21,123 nt of DNA from a virus, in the IMG/VR virus record IMGVR_UViG_3300034200_000618, positions 1 to 21,123 of that record, one strand, 5' to 3'. The position numbers were made by a program, and so were the translations under genes. The notes below the pieces were generated by a model. It was not told where the DNA came from. It saw only the letters and a program-made list of their open reading frames with translations, and searched no databases. Shown one piece after another: positions 2,649-21,002 of the stretch. Within the stretch, counting starts at the first letter, position 1; each line of letters starts with the position of its first letter.

Positions 2649-2987
2649 ATGGCAGACAACAACGGTCAGTTGATCACGCACGGTTCGGTGGGCACCACCG
2701 CTGAGACCTCGTACCTGACGGCATCCGTCAACCAGGTGGCAGTGCGCAACACCCACGCCACGCAGACGCTGGCGGTGCGCGTGTTCACCGGCAGCACGGC
2801 TGCCGCTGCGGCGGCCAGGGCCGATGCCACCGATGCGGTCGCGCTGGCCGACGAGAACTGGCACGTTCCGGCTGGCGGCCGAGTCGTCGTGTTCAAGTCG
2901 CCTCGCGCCAAGTACGTCGCGCTGTCCGTCGTCGGCTCGGGTGCGGCAACCCCGTACGTCACCGAAGGTTCGGACTGGTTCGACTGA
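2649..2987 (+). CDS. Putative virion decoration-type protein, 112 aa
   Basis: A good ribosome binding site, GGAGG at 2635-2639, lies 9 bases before the ATG. The protein has no Cys, is rich in Ala, Val, Thr and Ser, and alternates short strands: VAVRNTHATQTLAVRVFTG (near 30-48), a polar linker, then GGRVVVFKSPRAKYVALSVV (near 76-95). This looks like a small beta-sandwich. Such proteins next to structural genes are commonly head decoration or fibre-associated subunits; here that is inferred only from composition and location. The stop TGA overlaps the ATG of the next gene by one base (TGATG), so the two are translationally coupled and probably act together. Confidence 0.75.
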   Translation: MADNNGQLITHGSVGTTAETSYLTASVNQVAVRNTHATQTLAVRVFTGSTAAAAAARADATDAVALADENWHVPAGGRVVVFKSPRAKYVALSVVGSGAATPYVTEGSDWFD

Positions 2988-4543
2988 TGACGGCACGACG
3001 CGGGCCCAACCAAGTATGGGTGCCTGCCGTTGCCGGATACGAACAGGACAACGGCACCACCACGATCGATTCGATCCAGGCCAAGTGGCGTGACTCGTTC
3101 ACGTCCCCGGTGGCCGACAACTGGGATGTCACCACCAGCCTCGGCGTGACGGTGTCCCAGTCGGCAGGTGTGCTGACGATCGCATCCGGCACGACCGCAG
3201 CGGGCTATGCCGAACTGCTGTCGAAGCAGACGTTCCGCATCCCGTTCCGGGCGATGTTCGGCATCCAGTCGGGTGCTACTCGTCAGGCCAACACCCACCA
3301 CATCGTCGAGGCTGTCTCGGTCGACGAGAACACCGGCCTGCCCGATGGGCGACACCGTGTTGCGTGGGACATCGGCGGCGCTGCGTCTACCACCGTCACC
3401 CAGGGGATCTACGAAGTGCAGAACGGCGGGCTGGCTCCGCTGGCATCGGCGGCCTCAACGGTCGTCACCACGGCGACCTACATGGGCCTCGAACTGGAAC
3501 CGTTTGCCGACGAGGCGTACTTCCATGCACGGGCGATCGACTCGACGGCCGGTCGTGTCAACTCGTACGTCCGCCACCAGCAAATTCCCGACCCCAACGC
3601 GCTGTACAAGTTGCGCATCCGGTCGCTCAACCATGCGGCCTGGCGCACGATCAGCGGCGCTGTCGCTGGTACGGGCGGCGTGATCCGCCTGACGAGCACG
3701 GCGCACGGCTACACCGGCACGCCGACCGTCTGGGTCGAAGACCTGAACGGTGTCGTCAACGTGGTGAACGGCATCAACACGGCGGTGCGTGGCAACTACG
3801 CCATCAGCGTCGTCGACGCCAACACCATCGAGTTGACCGGCACCGTGTTCGGCGGCACCTACGTCGCTGGTTCCGGTCGCGTGGCGCTCGGTGCGGCACC
3901 TGCAGCGATCAACCTGCAGTTGCAGTTCGTCTCCGTGCAGGACTACGCCGAACTGACGGCCGAGATCACCGCTGGCCGAGGCCAGAACGTCCAGGGCCAG
4001 GCCATCGGCGTGCAACTCACGGGCGCTCCGTCTGCGACCACGGCAATCGGCCAAGTCGTCGCCGCTGGTCCGACGGCGCATGACGCCGTGCTGTCCGGCA
4101 ACCCGATGCGCATTGCCGCCCGAGCACTCTCGGCGGCGTACGCAACGGTCGCCACCGGCGATGTGGCCGACATGATCACCACCCTCCAGGGCGTGCTGGT
4201 GACCCGGCCGTGGCAGATTCCCGAACTGGAGTGGTCCTACGCAGCGGCGTCGGGCGGCGTCATCAACACCACTGATGTCGTGGTTGCGGCAGCGGCTGGC
4301 GCTGGCTTGCGCCGCTACATCACCTCCATGCAGTTGTCGAACAACTCGGCCACGGCGACCGAAGTGGTGCTGAAGGACGGCGCAACGGTGATCTGGCGAG
4401 GCCATCTGCCGGCGAACGCTCCGATGAGCGAGATCCTGTTCCAGAACCCGTTGAAGACGACCGCCAACGCTGCGCTCAACTTCGCGTGCATCACCACGGC
4501 AGCGGCCGTGTACGTCAACGCCCAGGGGTTCACCGCACCATGA
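2987..4543 (+). CDS. Large beta-rich virion or surface protein, 518 aa
   Basis: The start overlaps the previous stop by one base. Residues about 32-120 (KWRDSFTSP..., then GVLTIASGTTAAGYAELLSK) resemble a lectin-like beta-sandwich used in fibre and decoration proteins. Residues about 231-301 (IRLTSTAHGYTGTPTVWV, then NYAISVVDANTIELTG) match the pattern of the FCCH-like beta-barrel often met in phage structural proteins (named after the ubiquitin E1 domain). Residues about 420-518 form another small strand-rich module (LRRYITSMQLSNNSATATEV). The absence of Cys in most of the chain and the high Thr, Ala and Gly content fit an extracellular virion component. It could be a head fibre, a tail spike without an enzymatic domain, or a capsid decoration. 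Its position ahead of the terminase is unusual for a tail fibre. Confidence 0.75.
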   Translation: MTARRGPNQVWVPAVAGYEQDNGTTTIDSIQAKWRDSFTSPVADNWDVTTSLGVTVSQSAGVLTIASGTTAAGYAELLSKQTFRIPFRAMFGIQSGATRQANTHHIVEAVSVDENTGLPDGRHRVAWDIGGAASTTVTQGIYEVQNGGLAPLASAASTVVTTATYMGLELEPFADEAYFHARAIDSTAGRVNSYVRHQQIPDPNALYKLRIRSLNHAAWRTISGAVAGTGGVIRLTSTAHGYTGTPTVWVEDLNGVVNVVNGINTAVRGNYAISVVDANTIELTGTVFGGTYVAGSGRVALGAAPAAINLQLQFVSVQDYAELTAEITAGRGQNVQGQAIGVQLTGAPSATTAIGQVVAAGPTAHDAVLSGNPMRIAARALSAAYATVATGDVADMITTLQGVLVTRPWQIPELEWSYAAASGGVINTTDVVVAAAAGAGLRRYITSMQLSNNSATATEVVLKDGATVIWRGHLPANAPMSEILFQNPLKTTANAALNFACITTAAAVYVNAQGFTAP

Positions 4544-5027: not shown

Positions 5028-6839
5028 ATGACCGATGTAGTCGATGATCCGTGGGCCAACCTGCGTACCAAGCCCAAGGAAGACCCCCAAGCCCGTCGCT
5101 ACGAGACGATGAAGGCATATCAGGGCAAGTCCATTGAGGCGAACCGCCGCAAGGACCGCTTCATCGAGCTGATCGGCACCGGCAGCACCATCGACGAGGC
5201 GCTGGCCGAGGTCGGCGTGGGCCGCAACGCCTACAAGCAGTGGCGCAACCGTGACCGGTCGTTCGCTGCACGCGTTGACGTCGCCCGAGCGGGCAAGAAC
5301 GTGCTCCGAGGCGAGTATTCGGGCGGGCACGCCGAGTTCGCCGAGCGGTACTTCGGCATGTCGTACGCCTGGTTCCAGTTGCTGTTCATTCAGGAGTTGG
5401 AGAACCTGCCTCCGGGCAACATCCTCATGGCGCTGTGGCCGCCCGAGCACGGCAAGACCACCACTTACGAGAACTACGCCTCCGAGACGTTGGCCCGGCA
5501 CCCCGACCGACGTATGACCGTGGCCGGTGGCAACCTGCGCATCGCACAGAAGATCCTCGAGCGCGTGAAGCGACGCATGGAACCGGACGGCCCGTACCCG
5601 CAGTACGTCAACGACTGGGGTCCGTTCAAGCCGCCGACCGGCCAGGGCCGTGACCGGATGATCGCCCAACCGTGGGGCTCGGGCTACTTCAACGTGTTCA
5701 AGAAGTCGTCACACGACGAACGTGACTACTCGATGCAGGCGCTGGGCTTCAAGAGCGAGATCGTCTCGACCCGTACCGACCATCTGCACATCGACGACCT
5801 CCAGTCCACCAAGACGCTGAACCTGACCGACTCGATGGAGGAGTGGCTGCGCCAAGACGCCCTGTCGCGTCCCGGCGAGTACGGCATCACCACGATTGCG
5901 GGCACGCGCGTGGGCGACGACGACATCTACAGCCGCTTGGCGAACGACGAGTCGTTGTCGGGCATCTTGAAGGTCATCAAGTTCAAGGCCATCCGCACTG
6001 ATCCGATCACCGGCGAGCAGCAGGCGCTGTGGCCCGAGCGGTACAACCTCGACCAGTTGGATCGCCAGCGCCGCAAGGTCGGCCAGGAGGCGTGGGACCG
6101 CAACTACATGCAGGAGCCGGGCGCGTCGAACACCGATCGGGTGTTCACCGACGAGATGATCGACCGCTGCAAGAACCCGCTGCTGTCGTTGAAGCACAAC
6201 GTCACCCCCGGCAACATCGTCTACGTCGGCCTCGACCCGGCGCTCGGCGGCCAGAACTGCGTCATCGCGTGCGAGGCAACACCCGAGGGCCAACTGATCG
6301 TGCGCCGTATTCGTGAGGACGCCGGCCTGCAGCGCAACGAGCAGATCATGCAGTGCGTCAACGACGTGGTGGCCTGGTGCAACCTGAGTGGCTACGTCAC
6401 CGACGTCGTCGTGGAGTCGATGAACTTCCAGCGCGGCCTGGCCCGCGACGAGCGCCTGCTGGACATGCAGGCCCACTACGGCTTCGCACTGCGCGAGCAC
6501 CTGACGGGCTGGAACAAGTACGACGAGAACATCGGCGTGGCGTCGATGTGTGAGTCGTTCCTGCGCGAAGAGATCGTCATCCCGTGGGCCGACGACGACC
6601 TGACCCGCAACGAGATGGAGGAGTTGGTCCGTCAGTTGCGTGCGTGGAAGCCCGGCAAGCGCGGCACCAAGTTGCGCCAGGACCGGGTGATGGCGTTGTG
6701 GTTCGTGTGGATTCTGTGGCGCCAGCGGTACAAGCGGACCGATCTGGGTGCGGCGAATACCGGCCAGTGGCAGACAAGAGCGGTACCGTGGAAGCAGACC
6801 AGCAACAGTCTGATCATCCCCATTGGAGCGCGCCTGTGA
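5028..6839 (+). CDS. terL: Terminase large subunit, 603 aa
   Basis: This is the ATP-driven DNA packaging motor and headful/end nuclease. The ATPase domain shows Walker A at residues 137-146 (WPPEHGKTTT, Lys143) and Walker B with IDD at 255-257 (DHLHIDDLQ). The nuclease domain has the acidic residues expected of the RNase H-like fold: D403 in VGLDPALGG, E463 in VVVESMNF and D552 in RQDRVMALW. Residues about 48-76 (GSTIDEALAEVGVGRNAYKQW) look like a helix-turn-helix, a module normally carried by the separate small subunit or by an N-terminal extension. The length suits the family. The gene has no Shine-Dalgarno sequence and may be read from a leaderless transcript. It overlaps the portal gene by 4 bases (GTGA), as expected of partners in packaging. 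Confidence 0.95.
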   Translation: MTDVVDDPWANLRTKPKEDPQARRYETMKAYQGKSIEANRRKDRFIELIGTGSTIDEALAEVGVGRNAYKQWRNRDRSFAARVDVARAGKNVLRGEYSGGHAEFAERYFGMSYAWFQLLFIQELENLPPGNILMALWPPEHGKTTTYENYASETLARHPDRRMTVAGGNLRIAQKILERVKRRMEPDGPYPQYVNDWGPFKPPTGQGRDRMIAQPWGSGYFNVFKKSSHDERDYSMQALGFKSEIVSTRTDHLHIDDLQSTKTLNLTDSMEEWLRQDALSRPGEYGITTIAGTRVGDDDIYSRLANDESLSGILKVIKFKAIRTDPITGEQQALWPERYNLDQLDRQRRKVGQEAWDRNYMQEPGASNTDRVFTDEMIDRCKNPLLSLKHNVTPGNIVYVGLDPALGGQNCVIACEATPEGQLIVRRIREDAGLQRNEQIMQCVNDVVAWCNLSGYVTDVVVESMNFQRGLARDERLLDMQAHYGFALREHLTGWNKYDENIGVASMCESFLREEIVIPWADDDLTRNEMEELVRQLRAWKPGKRGTKLRQDRVMALWFVWILWRQRYKRTDLGAANTGQWQTRAVPWKQTSNSLIIPIGARL

Positions 6840-8668
6840 GAACCTTCGACGAGATCGTGCAGATCGTGCTGGATCTGCAACGCATCCAGGGCCCGACGTT
6901 GCTGCGGATGAAGGACGTGCTCGATCGGTACGACGGCGACTGGGTGATCCCCATGCCGTCGCTGAACGACGAGCCACGGCTGCCTCCGCTGACTCCGGCG
7001 CTGATCGGTGAGGCCGTCGACTCGATGGCGATGCGCGCGTCGAGCGTGCGGCCGACCGTGTACTCGCCGGCCATCGATTCGTCGAAGGACACGGGCCGTC
7101 GCTCGCGTGCGTACGCCACGACCCGGCGCAAGATCATCGCTGCGACGTACCACGAATCGAAGTGGCTGCTCGGTCGTCGCCGTTTCTACCGGCAACTGGC
7201 GGCGTACCACACCGGCTCGCTGGTCGTGGTGCCCGACTTCGAGACGAAGATGCCCCGCATCGAGGTCCGTGATCCGCTGAGTTCGCTCGTCGAGCCGCAG
7301 GCCAACGAGCAGTTGCGGCCACCGGACTACTGCGCGTTCATCACGCGCCACTCGGGCGAGCACCTGCGTCGGTTGTATCCACGCGCTCGCAGCGAGCAGG
7401 GTGGGCCGATCCCGCCGATGGAGGCCCACGAGATGTGGGACTGCGTGGAGTGGTTCGATCTGGACCAGGTCGTGTTCGGCATCGTCGGCCCGGTGCGTGA
7501 CTACGTCAACACCTACTACAGCCGCCAGATGTCGGCACCGTGGATGCAGTTGAGTCCTGCGTATCCGAACCGGGCAGGGATCGTTCCGGCCGTCGTGCCG
7601 CACAACGTGTCGCTCGGCAAGATCGCCAGCCGCATCGGCTCCATGCTCGGCAACGTCGATCTGCAGGCGAAGCTGATGGCGCTGGACATCGTCGCCCAGG
7701 AGAAGGCGATCTTCCCCGATATGTACGCAATCGGCCGGCAGAGCGGGATGCCGCAGGTCGTCGGCGGCCAGTGGAAAGACGGGCGCGAGGGCGAGATCAA
7801 CATGGTGCTCGACGTGGAGTCGATCGGGATGCTGCGCAACACGCCCGACCAGCGCACCGGCCAGATCATCGACCGCTTGGAGCGCAACTTCCGTGTCTCC
7901 ACCGGCCTTGTCCCCCAAACGGGGGGCGAGACGTACGGCGCGCTGCGCACCGGCGCTGGCATCAACGCGCTCGCTGGCATGGCGATCGACCATCGCGTGC
8001 AAGAACTGCATGAGATCAGCGAGGCGTACATGCCGCATCTGAACCATGCGATCCTGGCGACCTACAAGGGCTATTGGCCCGATCAGAAGTACGTTCTGTT
8101 CTCGGGCTGGCCCGACGATCCGGGCCGTGTGTCGTTCACGCCCGAGGAACACATCGAGACGTTCGACAACACCGTGTCGTACGCCATTGCTGGTGCCGAC
8201 GTCGTCCAGCAGACGCAGATCCTCGGCTCCCTCCTGGGCACCGGCACCATCAGCCGTCGCACGTTCCGCCAGAAGCACCCGTGGATCAACGACCCCGAGG
8301 CCGAGGGCGCTTTGGTCGACGAAGAGCAGTTCGAGGAGGCGTTGAAGCAGTCGATCATCCAGCAGTTGGCAACCGGCCAGATGCCGTTGCCCGTGGCGGC
8401 GATGATCCGTCGTGAACTGTCCAGCGGTGAGGACATCTTCACCGCCGTCGAGAAGGCCGACAAGATGATGCGTGAGCGTCAGGCCACCCCCGCACCGCCT
8501 GCGCCGGAAGGTATGGTGGCACCGCCCGAATCCATGCCTGGCATGGCCGGTGGCCCTGGGGCGCTGCAGCAGCCGTCCCCCGCAATCGCACCGCCTGAGC
8601 AGCAGCAGATCGAGGTGCCAGGTGACGTTCAGCGGATGCGTCAGTTGATGCAGGTCATGGGAGGCTGA
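6836..8668 (+). CDS. Putative portal protein, 610 aa
   Basis: The start is GTG at 6836, with GGAG 7 bases upstream and a GTGA overlap with the terminase stop. The frame stays open upstream but only as shadow of the terminase. Position directly after the terminase, the length, and the layout match phage portals: an alpha/beta N-terminal half, then a long helical stem region RTGQIIDRLERNFRVSTGLV with QTGGETYGALRTGAG (about residues 340-380), then a helical C-terminal wing. The final 60 residues are Pro-, Gln- and Met-rich (PAPPAPEGMVAPPESMPGMA), a flexible tail common in such proteins. The portal is the dodecameric DNA channel of the head. The assignment rests on context and general pattern, not on an invariant motif. 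Confidence 0.85.
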   Translation: MRTFDEIVQIVLDLQRIQGPTLLRMKDVLDRYDGDWVIPMPSLNDEPRLPPLTPALIGEAVDSMAMRASSVRPTVYSPAIDSSKDTGRRSRAYATTRRKIIAATYHESKWLLGRRRFYRQLAAYHTGSLVVVPDFETKMPRIEVRDPLSSLVEPQANEQLRPPDYCAFITRHSGEHLRRLYPRARSEQGGPIPPMEAHEMWDCVEWFDLDQVVFGIVGPVRDYVNTYYSRQMSAPWMQLSPAYPNRAGIVPAVVPHNVSLGKIASRIGSMLGNVDLQAKLMALDIVAQEKAIFPDMYAIGRQSGMPQVVGGQWKDGREGEINMVLDVESIGMLRNTPDQRTGQIIDRLERNFRVSTGLVPQTGGETYGALRTGAGINALAGMAIDHRVQELHEISEAYMPHLNHAILATYKGYWPDQKYVLFSGWPDDPGRVSFTPEEHIETFDNTVSYAIAGADVVQQTQILGSLLGTGTISRRTFRQKHPWINDPEAEGALVDEEQFEEALKQSIIQQLATGQMPLPVAAMIRRELSSGEDIFTAVEKADKMMRERQATPAPPAPEGMVAPPESMPGMAGGPGALQQPSPAIAPPEQQQIEVPGDVQRMRQLMQVMGG

Positions 8669-8669
8669 G

Positions 8670-9146
8670 ATGCCGAGGAAGCGCAAGACGCAGAGCGGGA
8701 TGGCCGCTCAACCCATCCAGGCAGTGCCCGGCACCGGCTACGGTCAGGGCATCAAGCAGGAACAGTTCGCACGGCAAATGCCTGCACCCAATGTGCGTGC
8801 TGGGGCCGCAAGGCCACCCGTATCGGCACCGATGCGCCCCCAAGCATCGAGGCCTACGGCCCCAGCCGTACAACCCCCGCAGCCGGTAGCGCAGCAGATG
8901 ACCACGTCGGCCAAGCCCGACCTGATGGCGATCGCGCAGCAGTTGCGTGGTGGCGGTGGTCTGCTACAGGCTCCAACGGCACGACCGAGCGAACCCGTGA
9001 CGGCAGGCTTGCGCATCGGACCGGGAGGTGGCCCTGAGATGCTGTCGCGTCCGTACGGCAGCCCGTTGACCGACATGATGATGCAACTCTCGCGCGCCAC
9101 CGGCGACCCGTACTTCGCTGACTTGGCGCAGAGGAGTCGGGCGTGA
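8670..9146 (+). CDS. Proline-rich linker-like protein, 158 aa
   Basis: GGGAGG lies 5 bases before the ATG; the same GGAGGCTGAGATG junction recurs before the gene at 19743. The N-terminus is basic (MPRKRKTQSG). Residues about 35-75 are rich in Pro, Ala and Gln with no regular structure. A short helix and GGGGLLQAP follow near residues 93-101, then a more ordered end (SPLTDMMMQLSRATGDPYFADLAQRSRA). It overlaps the giant gene by 4 bases (GTGA). A position between portal and giant virion protein could suit a scaffold or a head-internal assembly factor, but it is short for a scaffold and no protease is nearby. Function not recognised. Confidence 0.7.
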   Translation: MPRKRKTQSGMAAQPIQAVPGTGYGQGIKQEQFARQMPAPNVRAGAARPPVSAPMRPQASRPTAPAVQPPQPVAQQMTTSAKPDLMAIAQQLRGGGGLLQAPTARPSEPVTAGLRIGPGGGPEMLSRPYGSPLTDMMMQLSRATGDPYFADLAQRSRA

Positions 9147-12100
9147 CCGACTGGAGCAACTGGAACCCTGAGTCCGAACTGATCACAGCGGTTCAGAAGA
9201 ACATCGACATCAACAACCGAGTCCGGCTGGTAACTAGCATCAACCCATTGGTGCGCAACGACGCGCAGTTGGCGATGCGGATGGCGTCGTTGCCGATCTC
9301 GACGGACCAGTTGGGTACCAACTCGTTTGCGCTGGCAGGCATGATGGCGGCCGACCAGTTGCGCAGCAACGTGGAGTCGATGACTCCAGCGATGCAGCGC
9401 ATGGTGTGGGCACGGTTACCTCGAGCGCAACAGATGGCCCTCACGCAGCAGGGCTATCAGCCGCAGAAGGTTGACGAGTACGGCGTCACCGACATGCTGG
9501 GCGATGCGTTGAAGTTGCCGTTTCAGATCGTCGCTGCTCCCCTGAAAGGCTTGGGTCAGTTGACCGAGCCGATCTGGCAACCCGCCCTGCAGGGCTTGGC
9601 ATGGCTGGGCGATCAGCCTGCGCACATCTACCGAGCGATCCGCACGATGGACGATGGGCAGCAGTGGGCGGGCCTGGCTGGCGCAGTCATCGGCATTGGC
9701 GCAGCATTGGCAGCCATCCCGACGGGCGGCATGTCGTTGGTGGCGCTTGGGTCGTTGGGCGCTGCCGGCCTGGCAGGTGCGACCGCAGGCTCGATCCTTG
9801 CTGATCCGCTCAACCCGATGGACTTCGGGCGTGCGTGGATGGACACACGCGAGGGCGAGCGGTCGTTCGATCGCGCCGCCAGCCGCTACGCCGAAGGGCT
9901 GTTGGGCGACCCGCGCTTGAAGACGTTGGCTGTGGAGATTGCCGACATCTCCGAGCGATCGATCTACGAGATTGCTCGTGAAGTGGCTGGCGCGCAGGGG
10001 ACCTCTCCCGAGCAGCGGAACAACTCGTACCTGAGCGAACTGGTGCGCATTGCCGACGGCATCGCACAGCCCAACTCCGAGCAACATCAGCGCGTGATGC
10101 AGTCGCTGCAGAAGCTGATGACCGAGCCGGTGTTCTTGGAGGCCGTCAACAAACTGCAGAACGGCAAGATCAGCATTGGCCGTGACATTGCCGATGCGTT
10201 GCCGTGGGTCGAGAAGGACAGCGCGGTCTACACGATGATCTCGGGCGGATCGGACGCTCTGTTCCAGATCGCCGTGGACCCGTTCCTCGTGCTCGGGCGT
10301 GTCAACGAGATGGTGAAGTTCCGCCGTCTCGGGCTGGAAGTGATCGACGATGCGTTCAGCATCGACCGCTTCATGGACATTGCCCAGAACGTTCCGTCGG
10401 TCAAGCGTTTGCACACCAAGTTGGCCGAGGCTGTGGTGGCTGACAACTGGGACATGGCCCGTCGCCTTGGCACCGACAACGTGTCGCTGTGGGAGGGGCT
10501 GCGCACCTATCGAGAGAACTTGCTGCGTGAGGGCGTTGTCGGTCCGACGGAGTTCGGCGCCGAACACATCCGGGCGTACGTCAAGGACGTAAAGGACATG
10601 AAGTCCATCCTGTCCGGCATCGGCACCTACCGGAACAAGGGTCAGTTGATGCTCAAAGGCTTCAACTACCGCAACGAGGCGTGGGCTCGCGTTGGCGGCA
10701 CCCTTCGCAGTTTCTCCAGCGGTCTTACCGACATTCGGTCGGAAAGGCAGATGCTGAAAGAGATGGAAGCCTCGGGCGTCAATCGCGTCATGGACGGCCT
10801 GCCCGCCCATCTTCGACTGCATCGGCCGGTGCAGGAGGACATCCCGTTCCTGCAGGTGGTGGCGAACAACAGGGACTACTTGGCGCCAGGCCGTACCGGA
10901 TGGGATGTGTTGGCCGACGAACCGGCCAGGTTGAACGACGTGATGTTCGACTTCGCCAACCGTCTCGGCAAGCACGACCTGCTGCCCGACGACGACATTC
11001 AGTTCCTCGAGGATCTGCAACTGTCGATTGCGCAGAACGGTCGTCCGCTACAGCGCAAGACGTCTGAGTTCTCGGCCATCACCGATCGACTGTCTGACAT
11101 TGCGCAGCGCACGTTGGCGCTGCCGATCGAAGAACGGGCGGCATCGTTCTTGGACGAGTACGCGCTGTACAAGGAGCTGAACCCTGGGGCGCGTCAACTC
11201 GGTCGGAAGGTTGCGACTGTGTTGCCTCGTACGTCGCACGCTGTCGGCACCACGATGCAGATGGCAACGACGATGATCTCGCCCACCAAAGGCATCCAAC
11301 TGATGGGCGAAGGTGCGCCGGAGAACATCCGGCAGTTCGTGGAAGCACTGCGGTTGACCTCGATGCCCGAGTACATGCGGCGCATGTGGTTCGACGAGAT
11401 CATCAAGCACCCGACCGGGCACCTGCGTGGAGCAGCAATGCTCACTGCGTTGGACAACGGCCTGACGATTGCCGGGATGCGCTCGTTGAAGGGCGGCGAG
11501 GAGTTCGTCGACAAGTTCCTACTGCACGCACAGCACGCCTACGGCCTGGGCGGCGTCGTCGATCGCACCTACATCAACGGCCGTCGCATGGTCACGTCAC
11601 CGCTGTTGGACGACTCGGCGCAGTTCCTGATGATGCCGAACCTCACCGACCTGCGCAAGCTGACGCGTGCTGGGTTCGTGTCGCAGGTCATGGGCATCAC
11701 CGACGTCAAGGTGCTCGACTCGTTCATCAATCAGGTCTGGAAGCCTGCCGTGCTATTGCGCATGGCGTTCATTCCCCGTGCAGCGGGCGAAGAGTGGATC
11801 AACTTCATGCTGCGTGGAGGCTTTGGCTCCATCGTCGAGAACATGGGCGGGCAGTACGTCGGTCGCTACCGAGCCTGGCGCAACGTGATCGAGAAGGTCG
11901 AGAAGTTGGGTGCAGCCAAGGTGGGCAAGGGTGCGCTCACCGCCGAGGAAGCCTTGCTGTACTCGCAGGGCCCGTTGCCGAAGATCATGCGCCCGGTTGA
12001 ACGGATGCTCAACCGCTTCGACTGGGGCGCACCCATGCAGCGGCGCATGAGCGATTTCGCCGAGAACTTGCAGTATTGGCTCACGCCGGAATCGATGCAG

Positions 12101-15100
12101 GTGACGCTGCGCTCCGGCATCGAGGTGCCTGGCCGTGGCGGATTCGGCGTACAGGGCACGATCGATCGGATGATCGATCGCATCGGTGGCGACGCTCGTC
12201 GGCAGTTGTCAGCCGGTGCATCGGAGATCGAGTTGCGGCGCGCGATGACCCGTCAGGGGCGCTTCGCCAAGATGATCCCGACGTCCGAGAAGGCATGGTT
12301 CAACATTGCGGACTACGCCGACACGCTGCTGATGGGGTCGCCGTCATCGTGGCGACGTCTGCTGGCCGGCGGTGTGAACGACTACACCGTGGAAGCAGGT
12401 GAGCAGTTCGCCAAGACGTTCCAGACCATCCTCATGCGCGAGGTGTCGGCCACCGAGGCAGGCAACTTCGAGCGCAGTTACAACCGCAGCGACTTGAAGA
12501 CGTTTGAGGTGCCTGACGGCCAGGGCGGCACCAAGACGGTGCGGGCCGTGGCGATGCGTGGCGGCTGGAAGCGACACGAACGCATCATTGGTGACCCGAT
12601 GTTCAACTACGCCGCCCACCAGGGCGTGTTGAACACGATCGCTCTCGACGAGGGCGGGCGACGCGTAGCAACCGAGGTGCTGTCGCGAGTGCTGCCGTCG
12701 TCGCTGACGTACGACGAGGTGGCTGGCTTCTTGGACGAGGCCGCACGGATCGACGGTTCATTGGTGCGTGAACTGCTGCTCGGGTTCACGGCCAACGACC
12801 CGAAGATCGCACGCGTGACGTTGGAAGCCGTGGCTCGTCAAGACCCGTTCTTCGCGCTCGTGAAGAACCGGCTGCCTGAGACGGGGCCGATCATGCTCGA
12901 TGACGTGCGTGACGTGACAGATGCCGTGTTGGCTCGGTACACCGAGGTCGTGGCCGATGTGCGCAAGTGGCGCAGGGACATGCCCGACGAGGTCAAGAAC
13001 GAGGTCTGGGCCTACACGCGCACGGGCGAGATCCTGCCGTCGCCAGCAACCTTCAACACGGTGCCTGATCTTCCGCCGATGTTCGACACGGCCAACTCGT
13101 TGGTCGATGAAGGGGTGCGAGAGGCGATCGGGCGTGTGCAGGATGGCCTTGCAGCAGCGATGCGCCGAGGTGTCGATGAGCACGACTACCAGCGCCAGTT
13201 GATGAACCATCTGTACACGTCGCCACAGACGCTGTACGGCCCGAACAGCGCCGACGCCTCTCGTCGTCTGGCGCGCATCCAGCGAGACGAAGCACGCAAG
13301 ATGCTGAAAGAGGAGCGGCAGGCAGCACTGGATGAGGCCAAGCAGGCGGGCAGCGATGTCGACCCGGCCCTGCTGGCGAGCTTCGACCAGCGTCAGGCTG
13401 CGTTGGACGCCGAGCAGGCGTTGGCCGACGAGGCGCGCCGTCTGGCCGTCGAGCAGGGTGACATGCGTACCTACCGGCTGTACAACAACATCGACGAGGC
13501 TGACGCCGACGTGCGTGCGCTGCTGGCCGGGCACTTTGAGAACACGACCGTGCAGGAACGAGCGGCACTGTCGTTCCAATCGCCGGGTGGCTCCAACCAT
13601 GCCGAATACGACAACGTCACGGTCTACCGACCCGATGCAGCATTGATGATCCCCGATGAGGCCGTGCGTGCCATGTGGGATTCGCTGCCGCCGATGTACG
13701 AGGGCGAGCAGGCGCGCAACGCTGGCGATCTGGCCGACCTGCTGGTGAGCGAGTTGGCTCGGGCGGCAGGCATCGGCAACGCCTCCCAGATTTTGCAGCA
13801 TCGGGCCGAACTGGTGAATATGTACCTCACGCAGATGGACATGGTCTATCGGCGGGGCGGCAAGTTCTTCGGCTTCGATCTGATCGACGACTCGGCGGTG
13901 GTGCAATCGAGCCGCCCAGCTATCCGTGGGTACTTCACACAGCCTGATCCGGCCGACAGCCTGCCGGACCTCGACATGCTGTTTGCCGATCAGGCATTGG
14001 TGAGAGAACTGAACCAGGCCATGAAGAACCTCATGGCTCGCCACGGCAAGGTGGGACCGGAGGTTCCCGAGGTCTTTGCGGTGCGTGTCCCTCGAGCGGT
14101 GACGGACAACCGATCGACGAGCGTGATGAGCCCGCTGGCCCAGCGGATGCAGATTCGGGCTGCAACGCAGGACGAGGCGATGCTGGACGATCTGGCGCAG
14201 ATGCGCATGGATGCCACCAACGCACGCGAGCCGTTGACGTCGGAGATTCGGCCCATTGCCACCCGCCCGGGCACCGAGCTGCCGGCCATCTGGACAGCGG
14301 ACCGCAAGTACGTCAAGGACCGTGTGCAGTTGGCAAGCACGCTGCAGAACCCCGATGCGGCCGAGGCGTACGCCGACCGGATGTGGACGCACATCAAGCA
14401 GATGACGGGCAAGAAGAGCCGCGAGGTGCACCGTGCGCGGTTCGACGAGCGAGTGGTCGTAGCCGAGGACGGCACCGAGCAGACCGTGCGGAAGTCCCGT
14501 GTGTATCGCTACGGCAAGGACAACAAGGAGATCGTCGAGGTTCGGGACGGCGAGGATCTGTACCCCGAGTCGACGTTTGTTGATGAGCGCGGCAGGAAGG
14601 TCAAGTACGGCGACGGGCTGTTCATGGAGCCAGCGTCCTTGACCTATGAGCCGAACGATCTGATGTGGCAGTTGATCGGTCCCATGATCGAAGACACGTT
14701 CGATGGCATCCGGGGCATCCTCCGTCACGAACGCAAGGCAGAGATGATCACCGTTCGTGGTCGGCTGGAACCGTCGCCGGACTGGGTGCCGGTCTACCGC
14801 TCGAAGGACACGCACGTTCCCGACGAGGCGCACGGCGGTCCGCAGTTCGCTATCGGTCCGCTGCTCGAACCGCTGAAAGAGAACACCTGGCAGAAGATCG
14901 TGCGCTACGGCTTTGACGAGGTCATCGGTCCATCGATCGATGCCGTCGTGCGTCGGCCGATGGCCTTCCACTTCTTTGCTCAGCGGTACCGTTTCGCCAA
15001 GCAGGCGAACCAGTGGATGCTTGACCCAGACCTGGCGGGTCGGGCAATGCAGAGTCTGGCGGGCGCCCTGCACAGCCGGATCGTCGCTGACCCAGCGCAG

Positions 15101-17287
15101 ATCGAACAGGTCAGTGACGTCGTGCGCCGCATGGCGACGATCGATGGCTTCGGTGCCGAGAAGTGGGGCACGCGTGAGTCGATGGCATGGCTGCGGTCGC
15201 TGTCGGCCGATGAGGTGGGCCCAACATGGCGGCGCATCAAGGAAGCCATCGAGACGCGCGTTGATGCTCTGCCGCAGAGCGGTGCAGCGTCGCAGATGTT
15301 GCGCACGACGCTGGCCGACATGAATCAGTTGCAGAATCAGCTCTTGCAAGGCATCCCGCTCAACTCGGCGGTGCCCCAGGCGCTGCTTGACGAACGGTTG
15401 GCGGATCGTCTGCTGGGCATTGCCAACAGCAGCACCGTCGAACGTGACCTATTGGCCCAGATGGAGCGGCTGCTGCCCGTTGGTGCGATCTACGACCCCG
15501 ATCGGCTGTACGCCTCATGGAACCGCTATGTCGCCGAGCAGTACCGCTATGGCGGCATCTCGACTCGCGAGAGCGAGTTGACGTTGGACGAGGCTCGGAC
15601 GATTGCGGCACACGCCAAGGAGGTTCGTCACGCCAACGACGCAGCGGGCAATCTGGCGGCCGAGGCGGCGCTGCGCGACATCATGCCGTTCATCGACTCG
15701 CAGAAGGTGCGCACCCAGTTCGCTGAATACGGTCGGGGTTTGCTGCCGTTCTGGTACGCCGAGGAGAACTTCCTGAAACGGTGGGGCCGCACGATCCTTG
15801 ATGACCCGACGGTGATCCGCAAGGCGCAGTTGACGTACATGGGGCTACGCACGGCCGGCATCGTGCGCCAGGACGAGCAGGGCCAGGACTGGTTCGTGTA
15901 CCCCGGCTCGGGATTGCTGGTGGAAACGCTGTCGAAGGCGATGCCTGGTGTCGGTGTTGCTGCGATCGGCACGATGTTCCAGTCGCCCACGTCGTCGATG
16001 TTCCCTGGTCTGTCGGAGCGATTCGGCACGCCATCGTTCTCGCCGTTCGTATCGGTGCCGATGGACCTGGCGACATGGATGTTTGCTGATCTGGCGCCGG
16101 TCGAGCGTGCGCTGCTGGGCGATTACGCCGCAGGGCGCAACGCCCTCGAACACATCATCCCGACTTCGTTGACCAACCTGTGGGACGGCGTCATGCAGGG
16201 CGCAATGGGCCGGGTAGACGAGACGAACGTCCGCTACGCCTCGGCCATGATGAGCGCAATGGCACATCTCGACGCCATTGGAGACGGTCTGCCGGACAAC
16301 GCCAACGCACAGATGCGGGACGAGTTCTTGCGTCGCACTCGTGAACACGCTCGCGTCATTCTGTTCAGCCAGGCCATCGCTGGGTTCTTCACGCCGGGAC
16401 CGCCACAGGCGTTGATCACCGGCGAGACGGGGGGCGTGACGGGGTTCGGGGCCCAGGATCCCCGAGACATCCTCAACAGCCAGTATCAGACGTTGATCCG
16501 AGAACTTGGCATCGACGAAGGCACGGTGAAGTTCCTCGAGTTGAACCAGGATGCCAACCTGTTCGACATCGTCAACCCGGTTGCGCTGACGGTGGGCAAG
16601 ACCGAATCGACCAGCGGCGTGTCGCTGCCCACCACTGAGAAGGCTGTGCAGTTCTATAGCGAGCACAGCGACTACCTGCGGGCCATGCCGTTCGCTGGGC
16701 CGTGGCTGCTGCCGGTGGCCGAGAAGGGCGACGAGCGGTCGCAGTACGCATACGACCAGCAGTTGATCGAAGGTCTGCGGCGCAAGTTGACTCCCGACGA
16801 GTTTCTGTCCGAACTGAAGTACAAGGAAGCAGCGCCTCGCTACTTCGCGTTGAGGAAGCAGTACCTCGATGCGGTAGACCGCATGAAGATGGCCGGCAAC
16901 GAGGCGGGCGTCGAGCGGGCGAACCAGTATTGGCAGTCGGTGTCGACGGCGTATCGAGCGGCGCACCCCATCTTCGACGAGCAGATGAGCAGCAGCGATG
17001 GCCGGCAGCGACGAGCGAAGGTCATCGACGAGATGCGCACGGTGGTGTATGACCCGCAGGCTCCGCCATCGCCGCAGATGGAAGGTCTGCGTGAGATCAT
17101 GACGATGTGGGATCAGTACAAGATCGCTCTGGCAACGCTGCGGGAAGATGGCTCGGCGCGTGGCCGTGCCGCAGTGGAGCAGGCGAAGTCGACGTTCGAG
17201 CGGCTGATGGACGACATGCTGGTCCGACGGCCGGAGTTGCGCTCGTTCTACCTGGCTATCATCCGGCCCGAAGCTGATCTGGACTGA
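9143..17287 (+). CDS. Giant putative virion/ejection protein, 2714 aa
   Basis: The start is GTG at 9143 with GAGGAG 6 bases upstream. No stop interrupts 8.1 kb and codon use is uniform throughout. The protein is mostly helical and charged. Residues about 175-223 are an Ala/Gly-rich hydrophobic stretch (AGAVIGIGAALAAIPTGGM, then LGAAGLAGATAGSILADP) that could enter a membrane. Residues about 1373-1441 look like a coiled coil. Near 2198-2290 are RGLLPFWYAEENFLKRWGRT and YPGSGLLVETLSKAMPGVG, the most motif-like part. A transglycosylase ESxxxxxAxSxxGAxG motif, T7- or N4-type polymerase motifs and the DxDGD of two-barrel polymerases were looked for and not seen. Position after the portal and size suit an internal ejection protein; a divergent virion enzyme cannot be excluded. 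Confidence 0.8.
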   Translation: MTDWSNWNPESELITAVQKNIDINNRVRLVTSINPLVRNDAQLAMRMASLPISTDQLGTNSFALAGMMAADQLRSNVESMTPAMQRMVWARLPRAQQMALTQQGYQPQKVDEYGVTDMLGDALKLPFQIVAAPLKGLGQLTEPIWQPALQGLAWLGDQPAHIYRAIRTMDDGQQWAGLAGAVIGIGAALAAIPTGGMSLVALGSLGAAGLAGATAGSILADPLNPMDFGRAWMDTREGERSFDRAASRYAEGLLGDPRLKTLAVEIADISERSIYEIAREVAGAQGTSPEQRNNSYLSELVRIADGIAQPNSEQHQRVMQSLQKLMTEPVFLEAVNKLQNGKISIGRDIADALPWVEKDSAVYTMISGGSDALFQIAVDPFLVLGRVNEMVKFRRLGLEVIDDAFSIDRFMDIAQNVPSVKRLHTKLAEAVVADNWDMARRLGTDNVSLWEGLRTYRENLLREGVVGPTEFGAEHIRAYVKDVKDMKSILSGIGTYRNKGQLMLKGFNYRNEAWARVGGTLRSFSSGLTDIRSERQMLKEMEASGVNRVMDGLPAHLRLHRPVQEDIPFLQVVANNRDYLAPGRTGWDVLADEPARLNDVMFDFANRLGKHDLLPDDDIQFLEDLQLSIAQNGRPLQRKTSEFSAITDRLSDIAQRTLALPIEERAASFLDEYALYKELNPGARQLGRKVATVLPRTSHAVGTTMQMATTMISPTKGIQLMGEGAPENIRQFVEALRLTSMPEYMRRMWFDEIIKHPTGHLRGAAMLTALDNGLTIAGMRSLKGGEEFVDKFLLHAQHAYGLGGVVDRTYINGRRMVTSPLLDDSAQFLMMPNLTDLRKLTRAGFVSQVMGITDVKVLDSFINQVWKPAVLLRMAFIPRAAGEEWINFMLRGGFGSIVENMGGQYVGRYRAWRNVIEKVEKLGAAKVGKGALTAEEALLYSQGPLPKIMRPVERMLNRFDWGAPMQRRMSDFAENLQYWLTPESMQVTLRSGIEVPGRGGFGVQGTIDRMIDRIGGDARRQLSAGASEIELRRAMTRQGRFAKMIPTSEKAWFNIADYADTLLMGSPSSWRRLLAGGVNDYTVEAGEQFAKTFQTILMREVSATEAGNFERSYNRSDLKTFEVPDGQGGTKTVRAVAMRGGWKRHERIIGDPMFNYAAHQGVLNTIALDEGGRRVATEVLSRVLPSSLTYDEVAGFLDEAARIDGSLVRELLLGFTANDPKIARVTLEAVARQDPFFALVKNRLPETGPIMLDDVRDVTDAVLARYTEVVADVRKWRRDMPDEVKNEVWAYTRTGEILPSPATFNTVPDLPPMFDTANSLVDEGVREAIGRVQDGLAAAMRRGVDEHDYQRQLMNHLYTSPQTLYGPNSADASRRLARIQRDEARKMLKEERQAALDEAKQAGSDVDPALLASFDQRQAALDAEQALADEARRLAVEQGDMRTYRLYNNIDEADADVRALLAGHFENTTVQERAALSFQSPGGSNHAEYDNVTVYRPDAALMIPDEAVRAMWDSLPPMYEGEQARNAGDLADLLVSELARAAGIGNASQILQHRAELVNMYLTQMDMVYRRGGKFFGFDLIDDSAVVQSSRPAIRGYFTQPDPADSLPDLDMLFADQALVRELNQAMKNLMARHGKVGPEVPEVFAVRVPRAVTDNRSTSVMSPLAQRMQIRAATQDEAMLDDLAQMRMDATNAREPLTSEIRPIATRPGTELPAIWTADRKYVKDRVQLASTLQNPDAAEAYADRMWTHIKQMTGKKSREVHRARFDERVVVAEDGTEQTVRKSRVYRYGKDNKEIVEVRDGEDLYPESTFVDERGRKVKYGDGLFMEPASLTYEPNDLMWQLIGPMIEDTFDGIRGILRHERKAEMITVRGRLEPSPDWVPVYRSKDTHVPDEAHGGPQFAIGPLLEPLKENTWQKIVRYGFDEVIGPSIDAVVRRPMAFHFFAQRYRFAKQANQWMLDPDLAGRAMQSLAGALHSRIVADPAQIEQVSDVVRRMATIDGFGAEKWGTRESMAWLRSLSADEVGPTWRRIKEAIETRVDALPQSGAASQMLRTTLADMNQLQNQLLQGIPLNSAVPQALLDERLADRLLGIANSSTVERDLLAQMERLLPVGAIYDPDRLYASWNRYVAEQYRYGGISTRESELTLDEARTIAAHAKEVRHANDAAGNLAAEAALRDIMPFIDSQKVRTQFAEYGRGLLPFWYAEENFLKRWGRTILDDPTVIRKAQLTYMGLRTAGIVRQDEQGQDWFVYPGSGLLVETLSKAMPGVGVAAIGTMFQSPTSSMFPGLSERFGTPSFSPFVSVPMDLATWMFADLAPVERALLGDYAAGRNALEHIIPTSLTNLWDGVMQGAMGRVDETNVRYASAMMSAMAHLDAIGDGLPDNANAQMRDEFLRRTREHARVILFSQAIAGFFTPGPPQALITGETGGVTGFGAQDPRDILNSQYQTLIRELGIDEGTVKFLELNQDANLFDIVNPVALTVGKTESTSGVSLPTTEKAVQFYSEHSDYLRAMPFAGPWLLPVAEKGDERSQYAYDQQLIEGLRRKLTPDEFLSELKYKEAAPRYFALRKQYLDAVDRMKMAGNEAGVERANQYWQSVSTAYRAAHPIFDEQMSSSDGRQRRAKVIDEMRTVVYDPQAPPSPQMEGLREIMTMWDQYKIALATLREDGSARGRAAVEQAKSTFERLMDDMLVRRPELRSFYLAIIRPEADLD

Positions 17288-18697: not shown

Positions 18698-19741
18698 ATG
18701 GCGCCGAAACCGCAATCGCCAACTAGCCCAACGCCGGGGAACCCAACGCCACGTCCAACGCGACCGAGGAATCAGCCGACAACTCCACGGCCGCCTTCGC
18801 GTAACGTCGGTCAGGAGAAGCCGGCCGATGATGGCGTGCTTCGTCCGGGCAAACGGTACGACGAGTCATGGAAGACTTACGACCAGTGGTGGAACTCACC
18901 GGAGGCGGACTACGCCAAGGAGATCGCAGCGGTTCTCCCTGAGTACGCGTCGCAGATTCAGGAGATCGCCTGGACGTACCGATCCAGTGCTGAGGGCGCA
19001 GCAGATGCATTGCAACGTGCAGGCATCTGGGATGCGTGGTTTCTCAAAGGCGGAGGAGGAGGCGGCGGCTATCGAGGTGGCGGCGGTGGCGGTGGTAGCA
19101 CGGCACAGCAGTACGCCCAGGCCGAGGCAACCATCCGCAACCAGGTCAAGTCGATGGGCGTGCCGTTCAACGACGAGCAGATCAAGGGGCTTGCCAAGGC
19201 GGTCGTTGATGGCAACTGGTCAGCCGACATGGTCACCGACTACATCGTGGCGGGGGCAGGTGACTGGTCCACGGTGCAGGCAGGCCAGATCACCGCAGCG
19301 GCCGAGGCCGTTCGCAAGATGGCTGCTGCACAGCTCATCACGATCTCCGAGGACACGACGCGCGACTACGCACGGCGTGTGGCATCGGGCGAACTGACCC
19401 AGGACGGCATCCAGTCGATTCTGCTGAGCCAGGCCAAGACGCAGTTCGCCTGGCTGGCCCCGCAGTTGGACGCTGGCATGACGGTGCGAGATGTGCTGTT
19501 GCCGAGCCGTGATCTGATCGCTCGTGAGTTGGAGGTTCCGGCAGAAACGGTGGACCTGATGAACAGCAAGTGGCAGAGCATGGTCGTCACGAAGGAACCG
19601 AACGGTGCCATGCGGGCAGCGACGAACGACGAACTGATCAAGAACGCACGTCGGACGTCCGAGTGGCAGAACACCAAGGGTGCACGCGATCTGACGACGG
19701 CTGCGATCATGCGTATTCGATCGATGTTCTTCGGAGGCTGA
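18698..19741 (+). CDS. Putative virion protein with Pro-rich head and Gly-rich hinge, 347 aa
   Basis: It begins 1 base after the previous stop, with only a weak GGGG upstream, so translation is probably coupled. Residues 1-45 are a Pro/Thr/Arg linker (SPTSPTPGNPTPRPTRPRN). Residues about 50-115 are helical with YDQWWNSPEADYAKEIAAVL. Residues about 118-134 are an almost pure glycine run. The C-terminal 200 residues are a regular helical domain with AVVDGNWSADMVTDYIV, ISEDTTRDYARRVASGEL and LLPSRDLIARELEVP. The alternation of flexible linkers and helical domains recurs in the next gene. From memory, similar helical domains occur in actinophage and environmental phage structural regions; no exact role is known. 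Confidence 0.7.
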   Translation: MAPKPQSPTSPTPGNPTPRPTRPRNQPTTPRPPSRNVGQEKPADDGVLRPGKRYDESWKTYDQWWNSPEADYAKEIAAVLPEYASQIQEIAWTYRSSAEGAADALQRAGIWDAWFLKGGGGGGGYRGGGGGGGSTAQQYAQAEATIRNQVKSMGVPFNDEQIKGLAKAVVDGNWSADMVTDYIVAGAGDWSTVQAGQITAAAEAVRKMAAAQLITISEDTTRDYARRVASGELTQDGIQSILLSQAKTQFAWLAPQLDAGMTVRDVLLPSRDLIARELEVPAETVDLMNSKWQSMVVTKEPNGAMRAATNDELIKNARRTSEWQNTKGARDLTTAAIMRIRSMFFGG

Positions 19742-19742
19742 G

Positions 19743-21002
19743 ATGGCAAAGAACACACCACCGAGCGGGTCATCGTCGGGCGCTCCGTCAGGAGCCGAAC
19801 TGCGTCGTCTGCGCGAGGGCCAGGTGCCGGTCACCAGGCCAGCGTCACCGACGTCGCCCTTGCCGGGTGGTTCGATGTTCGGCACGCCAACGCAGCGGCC
19901 GACAGCACCGACGTCACAGCCGACGACGACTCGGCCGACGACCTCGACCACTCGGCCGTCTACGCCTGCACCATCGCCTGCACCATCGCCTGCACCTGCG
20001 CCGGAGCCGACGCCGGAGCCGACGCCTGCAACGGAAACGCCTCCGACGGGCGCCGAGGCACCGCTGACGCCCGAGACGCCGGGCGCGCAGCCGACGCTCG
20101 ACCCCAACTCGCCGCAGGCCAACACAACCGAAAACCGTCGCCTGTTCAGCCTGCTGTCGTCGATGCTTGGTGAACTGCGTCTCGGCGGGCTGTACTCGGT
20201 GGACGCGTCAGGCGCGCCGAGCGGGTGGCTGTGGGATCGCATCATCAACAACTCGATCAGCGAAGCCACGTTGGAGTTCGAGATCGAGCAGACCGACGAG
20301 TACAAGCGTCGCTTCCCGGCCGTGGAGTTCTTGAAGTCGGAGGCTCGGGCCGGTCGATTCACGGGACCGCCAACGGCAGCCACGGTGATTGAGTACGAGC
20401 GGGAAGCCAAGCGCATCTTGCAGGGGGCGCAACTGCCGCCCGAGTTCTACGACAACGACACCGAAGACCTGCAGGGGTTGATGATGAAGGGCATCTCCAC
20501 CGTGGAGTTGGAGCAGCGCGTCGGGCAGAGTTGGGCCCGTGTGCAGTCGACCAACCCGGCCATCCGCCAGGCATTCAGCGACTTCTACGGCGTCGGCAAC
20601 GGCGACTCGGCGCTCGCTGCGTTCTTCCTCGACCCCAACAACATGACGCAGAACCTGGACCGGATGAGCCGCAGTGCCTACACCGCAGGCATCGGCCGCC
20701 AGGCAGGCGTGGGACTGGACAAGGCCACGGCCGAGCGTATTACGACGATGACGACCAACGACGCGCAGATCGATCAGGGCATCGGCCAACTGTCCGAGTA
20801 CAGCACGCTGTTCGACGAGGGCATCACCGAGACGCAGGATCTGAGCGTCGAGGGCGCAGGCGTCGATGCAGCGTTCGGCAACAACGCCGAGGCACGCAGC
20901 GCGCTCGAGCGACGACTGATCAGTCGTCAGGCGAATCGTGGCCTGGGTGGCGGCGGTGCCGTGCAGACGCAGCGTGGTCTGATAGGAACAGGGAACGCGT
21001 GA
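19743..21002 (+). CDS. Putative virion protein with long Pro/Thr linker, 419 aa
   Basis: GGAGG (19733-19737) lies 5 bases before the ATG. Residues about 25-120 are a disordered linker of Pro, Thr, Ala and Glu, partly coded by 12-base tandem repeats (PAPSPAPSPAPAPEPTPEPT). The rest is helical: GWLWDRIINNSISEATLEFE, DEYKRRFPAVEFLKSEARAG, LPPEFYDNDTEDLQGLMMKG, ISTVELEQRV and GVGNGDSALAAFFLDPN. The order YKxRFP...LPPEFYD...ISxxELxxRV...FFLDP seems, from memory, to recur in actinophage and marine phage virion proteins of unknown function. The end is glycine-rich (GLGGGGAVQTQRGLIGTG). It closes the group of three medium-sized proteins after the giant gene, likely components of the same virion substructure. 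Confidence 0.7.
   Translation: MAKNTPPSGSSSGAPSGAELRRLREGQVPVTRPASPTSPLPGGSMFGTPTQRPTAPTSQPTTTRPTTSTTRPSTPAPSPAPSPAPAPEPTPEPTPATETPPTGAEAPLTPETPGAQPTLDPNSPQANTTENRRLFSLLSSMLGELRLGGLYSVDASGAPSGWLWDRIINNSISEATLEFEIEQTDEYKRRFPAVEFLKSEARAGRFTGPPTAATVIEYEREAKRILQGAQLPPEFYDNDTEDLQGLMMKGISTVELEQRVGQSWARVQSTNPAIRQAFSDFYGVGNGDSALAAFFLDPNNMTQNLDRMSRSAYTAGIGRQAGVGLDKATAERITTMTTNDAQIDQGIGQLSEYSTLFDEGITETQDLSVEGAGVDAAFGNNAEARSALERRLISRQANRGLGGGGAVQTQRGLIGTGNA
19972..20035 (+). repeat. 12-base tandem repeats coding a Pro-rich linker
   Basis: GCCTGCACCATC occurs twice in tandem with a partial third copy, followed by two copies of GCCGGAGCCGAC. They keep the reading frame and encode alternating PAPS and PEPT units. 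Such repeats can change length by slippage, which would lengthen or shorten the linker. Confidence 0.7.

Follow-up and report, generated by a model that had tools for sequence, protein, structure and literature searches.

What does a phage gene of 2714 codons, lying behind the portal gene and one small gene, encode? We asked this of a window of 21,123 nt (positions 1 to 21,123 of the IMG/VR virus record IMGVR_UViG_3300034200_000618), which is the whole stretch of DNA analysed here. A first-pass annotation had pointed to the uninterrupted reading frame and its place after the portal and a small protein, had seen no recognisable enzyme motif in it and had considered either a new class of ejected protein or a divergent virion enzyme. 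The gene and its neighbours are listed below.

5028..6839, + strand: terminase large subunit, TerL (PHROG 38, 1.9e-46)
6836..8668, + strand: portal protein (PHROG 64, 1.2e-3; PF05133, 6.2e-4, under the Pfam cut-off; syntenic with annotated portals; start inferred from the GTGA overlap with TerL)
8670..9146, + strand: small protein l, 158 aa (PHROG 8200)
9143..17287, + strand: giant protein, 2714 aa, GTG start, open for 2714 codons
17296..18696, + strand: gene m, 466 aa, present in a subset of relatives only
18698..19741, + strand: gene n, 347 aa (PHROG 6654)
19743..21002, + strand: gene o, 419 aa (PHROG 8424)

The giant reading frame is a gene under purifying selection

The frame is real. Its GTG start is preceded by an AGGAG site and overlaps the stop of gene l as GTGA, and collinear versions exist in related contigs: L001 and L002 are 89% identical to the window gene, and L003 aligns with it in two blocks at 82% and 77%. 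Over the whole length, dN/dS was 0.102 against L002 and 0.164 against L003, and every block gave a value of 0.27 or less, indicating purifying selection throughout, including the centre of the window protein (0.10-0.21). Hence, the gene is functional and no accidental frame of high-GC DNA.

The giant protein belongs to a family with three shared modules

Searching 50,697 phage records by tblastn gave a single match, Planktophila phage E7 (OX376640). The Streptomyces podoviruses of the Beephvirinae were reached via the neighbouring TerL and gene o, and motif scans of IMG/VR gave 77 loci, with 23 in a second, partly overlapping scan. About 95 loci carry a homologous giant gene, including those of phage E7 and of the Beephvirinae, where the homologues are annotated only as "hypothetical protein". 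A whole-protein MAFFT alignment misplaced the N modules of the short members, so module boundaries were taken from iterative HMMs. The proteins bearing these modules include FlowerPower gp9 and JXY1 gp66, and Immanuel3 gp9 matches the N, M and C modules. By homology, then, the giant protein belongs to the unnamed Beephvirinae gp9/PHROG 10618 family; the first-pass annotation, made without databases, had no view of these relatives, which make the gene part of a family and no orphan.

In a tree of the C module, the window protein falls within a supported clade (99/97) together with other versions of 2,270-3,058 aa. In this long clade, the centre is longer by about 1,000 residues and a block at 1780-2060 is clade-specific, and across one gene order the size of the giant protein ranges from about 1,590 to 3,058 aa. 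The searched literature, with subscription papers mostly outside it, held no functional description of the Beephvirinae gp9/PHROG 10618 family. As far as we searched, these very large, mostly helical proteins are widespread and so far undescribed functionally. The scan of genome contigs gave one locus, a family member (L102, 2884-10233) on a contig assigned to a gammaproteobacterial MAG; it is probably a misbinned phage contig, and was therefore left out of host assignment.

A hydrophobic hairpin and a conserved C module stand out in the protein

The window protein comprises the following parts.

9143..10822, + strand: N module, aa ~1-560, family-wide (75 proteins by iterative HMM; all-helical model)
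9653..9811, + strand: Gly/Ala hydrophobic helical hairpin, aa ~171-223, candidate membrane segment by hydropathy and model
10241..10300, + strand: signature SGxxDxxxxxxxDP, aa ~367-386, from family alignments
11150..12205, + strand: M module, aa ~670-1021, family-wide (77 proteins by iterative HMM)
12473..14479, + strand: variable centre, aa ~1111-1779, site of optional domains in long-clade relatives
13259..13465, + strand: charged helical stretch, aa 1373-1441, where a domain of ~106 aa is inserted in L003
14480..15322, + strand: long-clade block, aa ~1780-2060; a small beta domain predicted at ~1760-1885 overlaps it
15560..17284, + strand: C module, aa ~2140-2714, family-wide and most conserved (82 proteins by iterative HMM)
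15740..15790, + strand: LLPFWYAEENFLKRWGR motif, aa ~2200-2216, within the C module

The Ala/Gly hydrophobic stretch of the first-pass annotation (about 175-223) is real, with hydropathy peaks of 1.79 at residue 176 and 1.38 at 202, and the AlphaFold model predicts its helices at 171-191 and 199-220. The first of these peaks is above the best segment of T7 gp16 (1.44). A hydrophobic hairpin is predicted in 23 of the 25 long members, and its strong form is missing from the short clade. The stretch at about 1373-1441, described as a coiled coil, is charged and helical and coincides with the site of the domain inserted in L003. Regarding the motif-like segment at about 2198-2290, its FWYAEENFLKRW belongs to the block that is best conserved across the family, and PHROG 10618 matches aa 2172-2246 of the C module. 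The M module contains WKPAVLLRMAFIPRAAGEEW at aa ~866-885, and D371, D379 and P380 of the N-module signature are invariant in two family alignments. A likeness of this signature (SGxxDxxDP) to the VDPL of T7 gp16 was rejected, as the match was no better than those of shuffles.

Profile and structure searches give no significant enzyme or tape-measure match

The sole significant match of the giant protein in Pfam, PHROGs and NCBIfam was PHROG 10618, a family of unknown function. These collections gave no match to an enzyme family (polymerase or hydrolase) or to a tape-measure family, and the family profile found no match with E <1 among PDB sequences. The AlphaFold models of aa 1-1110 (mean pLDDT 59.9, pTM 0.33) and aa 1515-2714 (mean pLDDT 64.0, pTM 0.35, best in the C module) are mainly helical, with a small beta domain predicted near 1760-1885 at low confidence. 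Given this low overall confidence, the models are too weak for us to claim a new fold. With both of them, Foldseek against the PDB gave no match at E <=0.001, and VIA-align returned Z values below 8, on generic helices. Five BFVD matches were significant, all of them to proteins lacking a functional name; those to tape-measure proteins were weak and non-significant (E ~0.02-0.03). The earlier impression of a protein with no recognisable enzyme motif is therefore borne out for this copy in Pfam, PHROGs and NCBIfam. Signatures of T7 gp16 and N4 gp50 had gone unseen by eye, and sequence comparison finds no similarity to them either. The profile search and the structure prediction with Foldseek that had been suggested gave no catalytic fold match and mainly helical, low-confidence models, and the strong tape-measure or tail profile match named as a refutation did not turn up.

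Relatives carry additional domains in the centre

In L012, the centre holds a GNAT acetyltransferase domain (best Pfam 1.8e-7); on both sides of it, L012 is 74-83% identical to phage E7, which has no GNAT. Insertions at a similar position occur in L065 and L059, the latter with only weak GNAT support. Another insert, X1, is present in L020, L024, L025, L026, L106, L115, L119, L121 and L123. Leave-one-out HMMs (4e-9 to 1.5e-14) identify it as one homologous domain in the first six of these, whose models found the copies in the other three. X1 shows the pattern [YF]RG - SxS - RRE, with M replacing R in two members, and by this motif it resembles the R-S-E ADP-ribosyltransferases (ARTs); the assignment had no profile support from Pfam, PHROGs, NCBIfam or the PDB. 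A further insert, X2, shared by L003 and L109 (3.1e-7), has the pattern YRG...GRxxxxD...AxxY/F and may be called ART-like on the strength of that motif. As the insertion labels are scattered on the C-module tree, several gains or losses are indicated. GNAT, X1 and X2 are all absent from the window copy, and no optional domain was recognised in its centre (aa ~1111-1779), a region that is poorly conserved between relatives.

The gene lies in a conserved block of virion genes

The block TerL - portal - ~150-aa protein - giant protein - (m) - n - o - capsid recurs in almost all relatives that could be tested. Where the flank was long enough, the genes upstream of the giant gene included TerL (37/37 loci), the portal gene (63/63) and l (87/89), and those downstream of it n (61/61), o (52/52) and the capsid gene, MCP (35/37). 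The window stops before the capsid gene, which follows in L002 (PHROG 1328, 7.2e-39). FlowerPower gp11 and gp12 are homologues of n with N-terminal NlpC/P60 (1.7e-29) and SLT (3.6e-5) domains; no wall-hydrolase domain was found in the window's own gene n.

Some further observations concern the flanking genes. The two n homologues of FlowerPower (L006, 12173-14767) stand in tandem, with different wall-degrading domains and a common C-terminal part. Gene m of the window gave a marginal peptidoglycan-binding match (0.036). The capsid gene of L002 (22697-23869) and the next gene (23942-24853) have a segment in common (capsid ~70-146), and PHROG tail and fibre families match it too, which suggests a decoration-like domain present in both. 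The few L002 genes checked included none recognisable as belonging to a long tail. At the other end of the window, an ORF at 1840-2316 has CxxC pairs and LDRID...YEPGNIRWAT...QxxN, an HNH-endonuclease-like end, with no Pfam match; L002 lacks positions 1830-2297, which thus look like an insertion. For the 518-aa gene that precedes TerL (2987-4543), no family match was obtained, and at its place L002 has a 568-aa gene, near whose start the DNA similarity stops. A variable tail or fibre gene would fit.

Regarding morphology, the Beephvirinae, which are only distant relatives of the window phage, are podoviruses by electron microscopy (PMC9753666), and the tail of phage Abafar measures 16 nm (PMC11536984). 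Planktophila phage E7 was isolated on a freshwater actinobacterium, and WhiB genes mark actinophages (PMC10202952). Such genes are present in 4 of 7 relative contigs and absent from the closest, L002. From this we infer the host of the window phage, which is probably an actinobacterium.

A putative ejection protein

We think it probable that the giant protein is an ejection (internal virion) protein, which would be held near the portal, expelled via the short tail and placed in the host envelope, on the path of the DNA. We propose this because of the fixed gene block, the podovirus homologues, the wall hydrolases linked to n, the hairpin, the helical models, the variable size and the selection. 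Variable size has been described for ejection proteins, and the T7 ejection set includes wall hydrolases, swapped between its members (PMC8954989). The steps beyond gene order and anatomy are drawn by analogy with T7 (PMC8954989) and N4 (PMC12633501). The giant protein would be packaged near the portal together with the products of l, n and o, and would travel through the portal and the short tail during infection. Its hydrophobic hairpin and helical modules would cross the host wall and membrane, the protein would contribute to a channel for DNA entry, and n-type partners may cleave the wall in relatives. The structural core would consist of the conserved N, M and C modules, and the variable centre would be the site where the family can hold effector domains. 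Against an ejection role stand the lack of similarity to T7 gp15/gp16 or N4 gp50, the low confidence of the models, a short clade devoid of the strong hairpin, a window gene n that has no wall-hydrolase domain and a podovirus morphology documented for distant relatives only. Of the two possibilities raised at the outset, the ejected protein of a new class is now the better supported (position, podoviral relatives, wall-hydrolase genes, hairpin, helices), and a divergent virion enzyme is unsupported for the window copy, with no enzyme profile and no confident structural match.

One could argue that the centre (aa ~1111-1779) hides an unrecognised catalytic domain, and that the protein is a virion-packaged enzyme or polyvalent effector delivered to the host. 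The central GNAT (best Pfam 1.8e-7) and ART-like domains of relatives are consistent with this, as is the selection on the window's centre; proteins of the polyvalent type are often longer than 2,000 aa and include ART and GNAT domains (PMC5512222). However, Pfam, PHROGs and NCBIfam contain no enzyme profile matching the protein, the window copy has none of the three inserted domains, and the centre is poorly conserved among relatives, and we regard this reading as unlikely. Doubtful, too, is a combined version, in which the family would be a DNA conduit and interchangeable effector carrier, with a cargo role for the centre: in the window copy, this poorly modelled region would hold a further, unrecognised effector domain, injected along with the genome.

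A tape-measure or tail-hub protein of a long-tailed phage would equally be large and helical, and the weak BFVD matches, non-significant as they are, go in that direction. Yet there is no profile match, the gene lies between the portal and capsid genes, the Beephvirinae relatives are short-tailed and the length varies about two-fold in one gene order, all of which makes such a protein very improbable. We give even less credit to a divergent N4-type virion RNA polymerase. Size speaks for it, and so does the three-part layout, as the central region of gp50 is flanked by non-polymerase ends (PMC5512222); however, BLAST gave a best E of 0.20, the family HMMs gave negative scores or no match against gp50, no polymerase profile matched, and the centre varies, where conservation would be expected of a polymerase core.

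As an ejection protein, the giant protein would define a candidate ejection system in actinobacteria-linked podophages. Its core has no sequence relationship to T7 gp16 or N4 gp50, and in proteins of up to 3,058 aa enzyme-like domains have been gained or lost repeatedly. Cultured relatives (FlowerPower, Abafar and Planktophila E7/F5) make this system testable.

Comparison with known systems

T7 gp16 is, like the giant protein, large and mainly helical, with hydrophobic segments and small partner genes among the virion genes; unlike gp16, the giant protein has no lytic transglycosylase (SLT) domain, and the two share no sequence similarity. N4 gp50, with the gp51/gp52 ejection set, offers the same arrangement of a giant protein and smaller partners in a virion cassette, but the giant protein has no detected polymerase domain or similarity to gp50. 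It was therefore filed outside both families. By analogy, our best reading is that it would act as T7 gp16 does, or as N4 gp50 does outside its polymerase part. Polyvalent proteins (PMC5512222) are likewise large and lie among portal-terminase phage virion genes; relatives of the window protein have GNAT and possibly ART-like domains, and the window copy differs in having no recognised effector domain. The Planktophila phages E7 and F5 (OX376640, OX376641; PMC10202952) were cultured on a freshwater actinobacterium, and E7 has a homologue of 1,764 aa in the same block, although it is a short version in a low-GC genome, with ~21% identity over the C module. Finally, Beephvirinae gp9 (FlowerPower YP_009838066, Immanuel3 YP_009836128), of about 1,635-1,650 aa, differs from the window protein in having neither the long centre nor a strong hydrophobic hairpin, but shares with it homologous N, M and C modules and the gene order TerL, portal, l, n, o, capsid.
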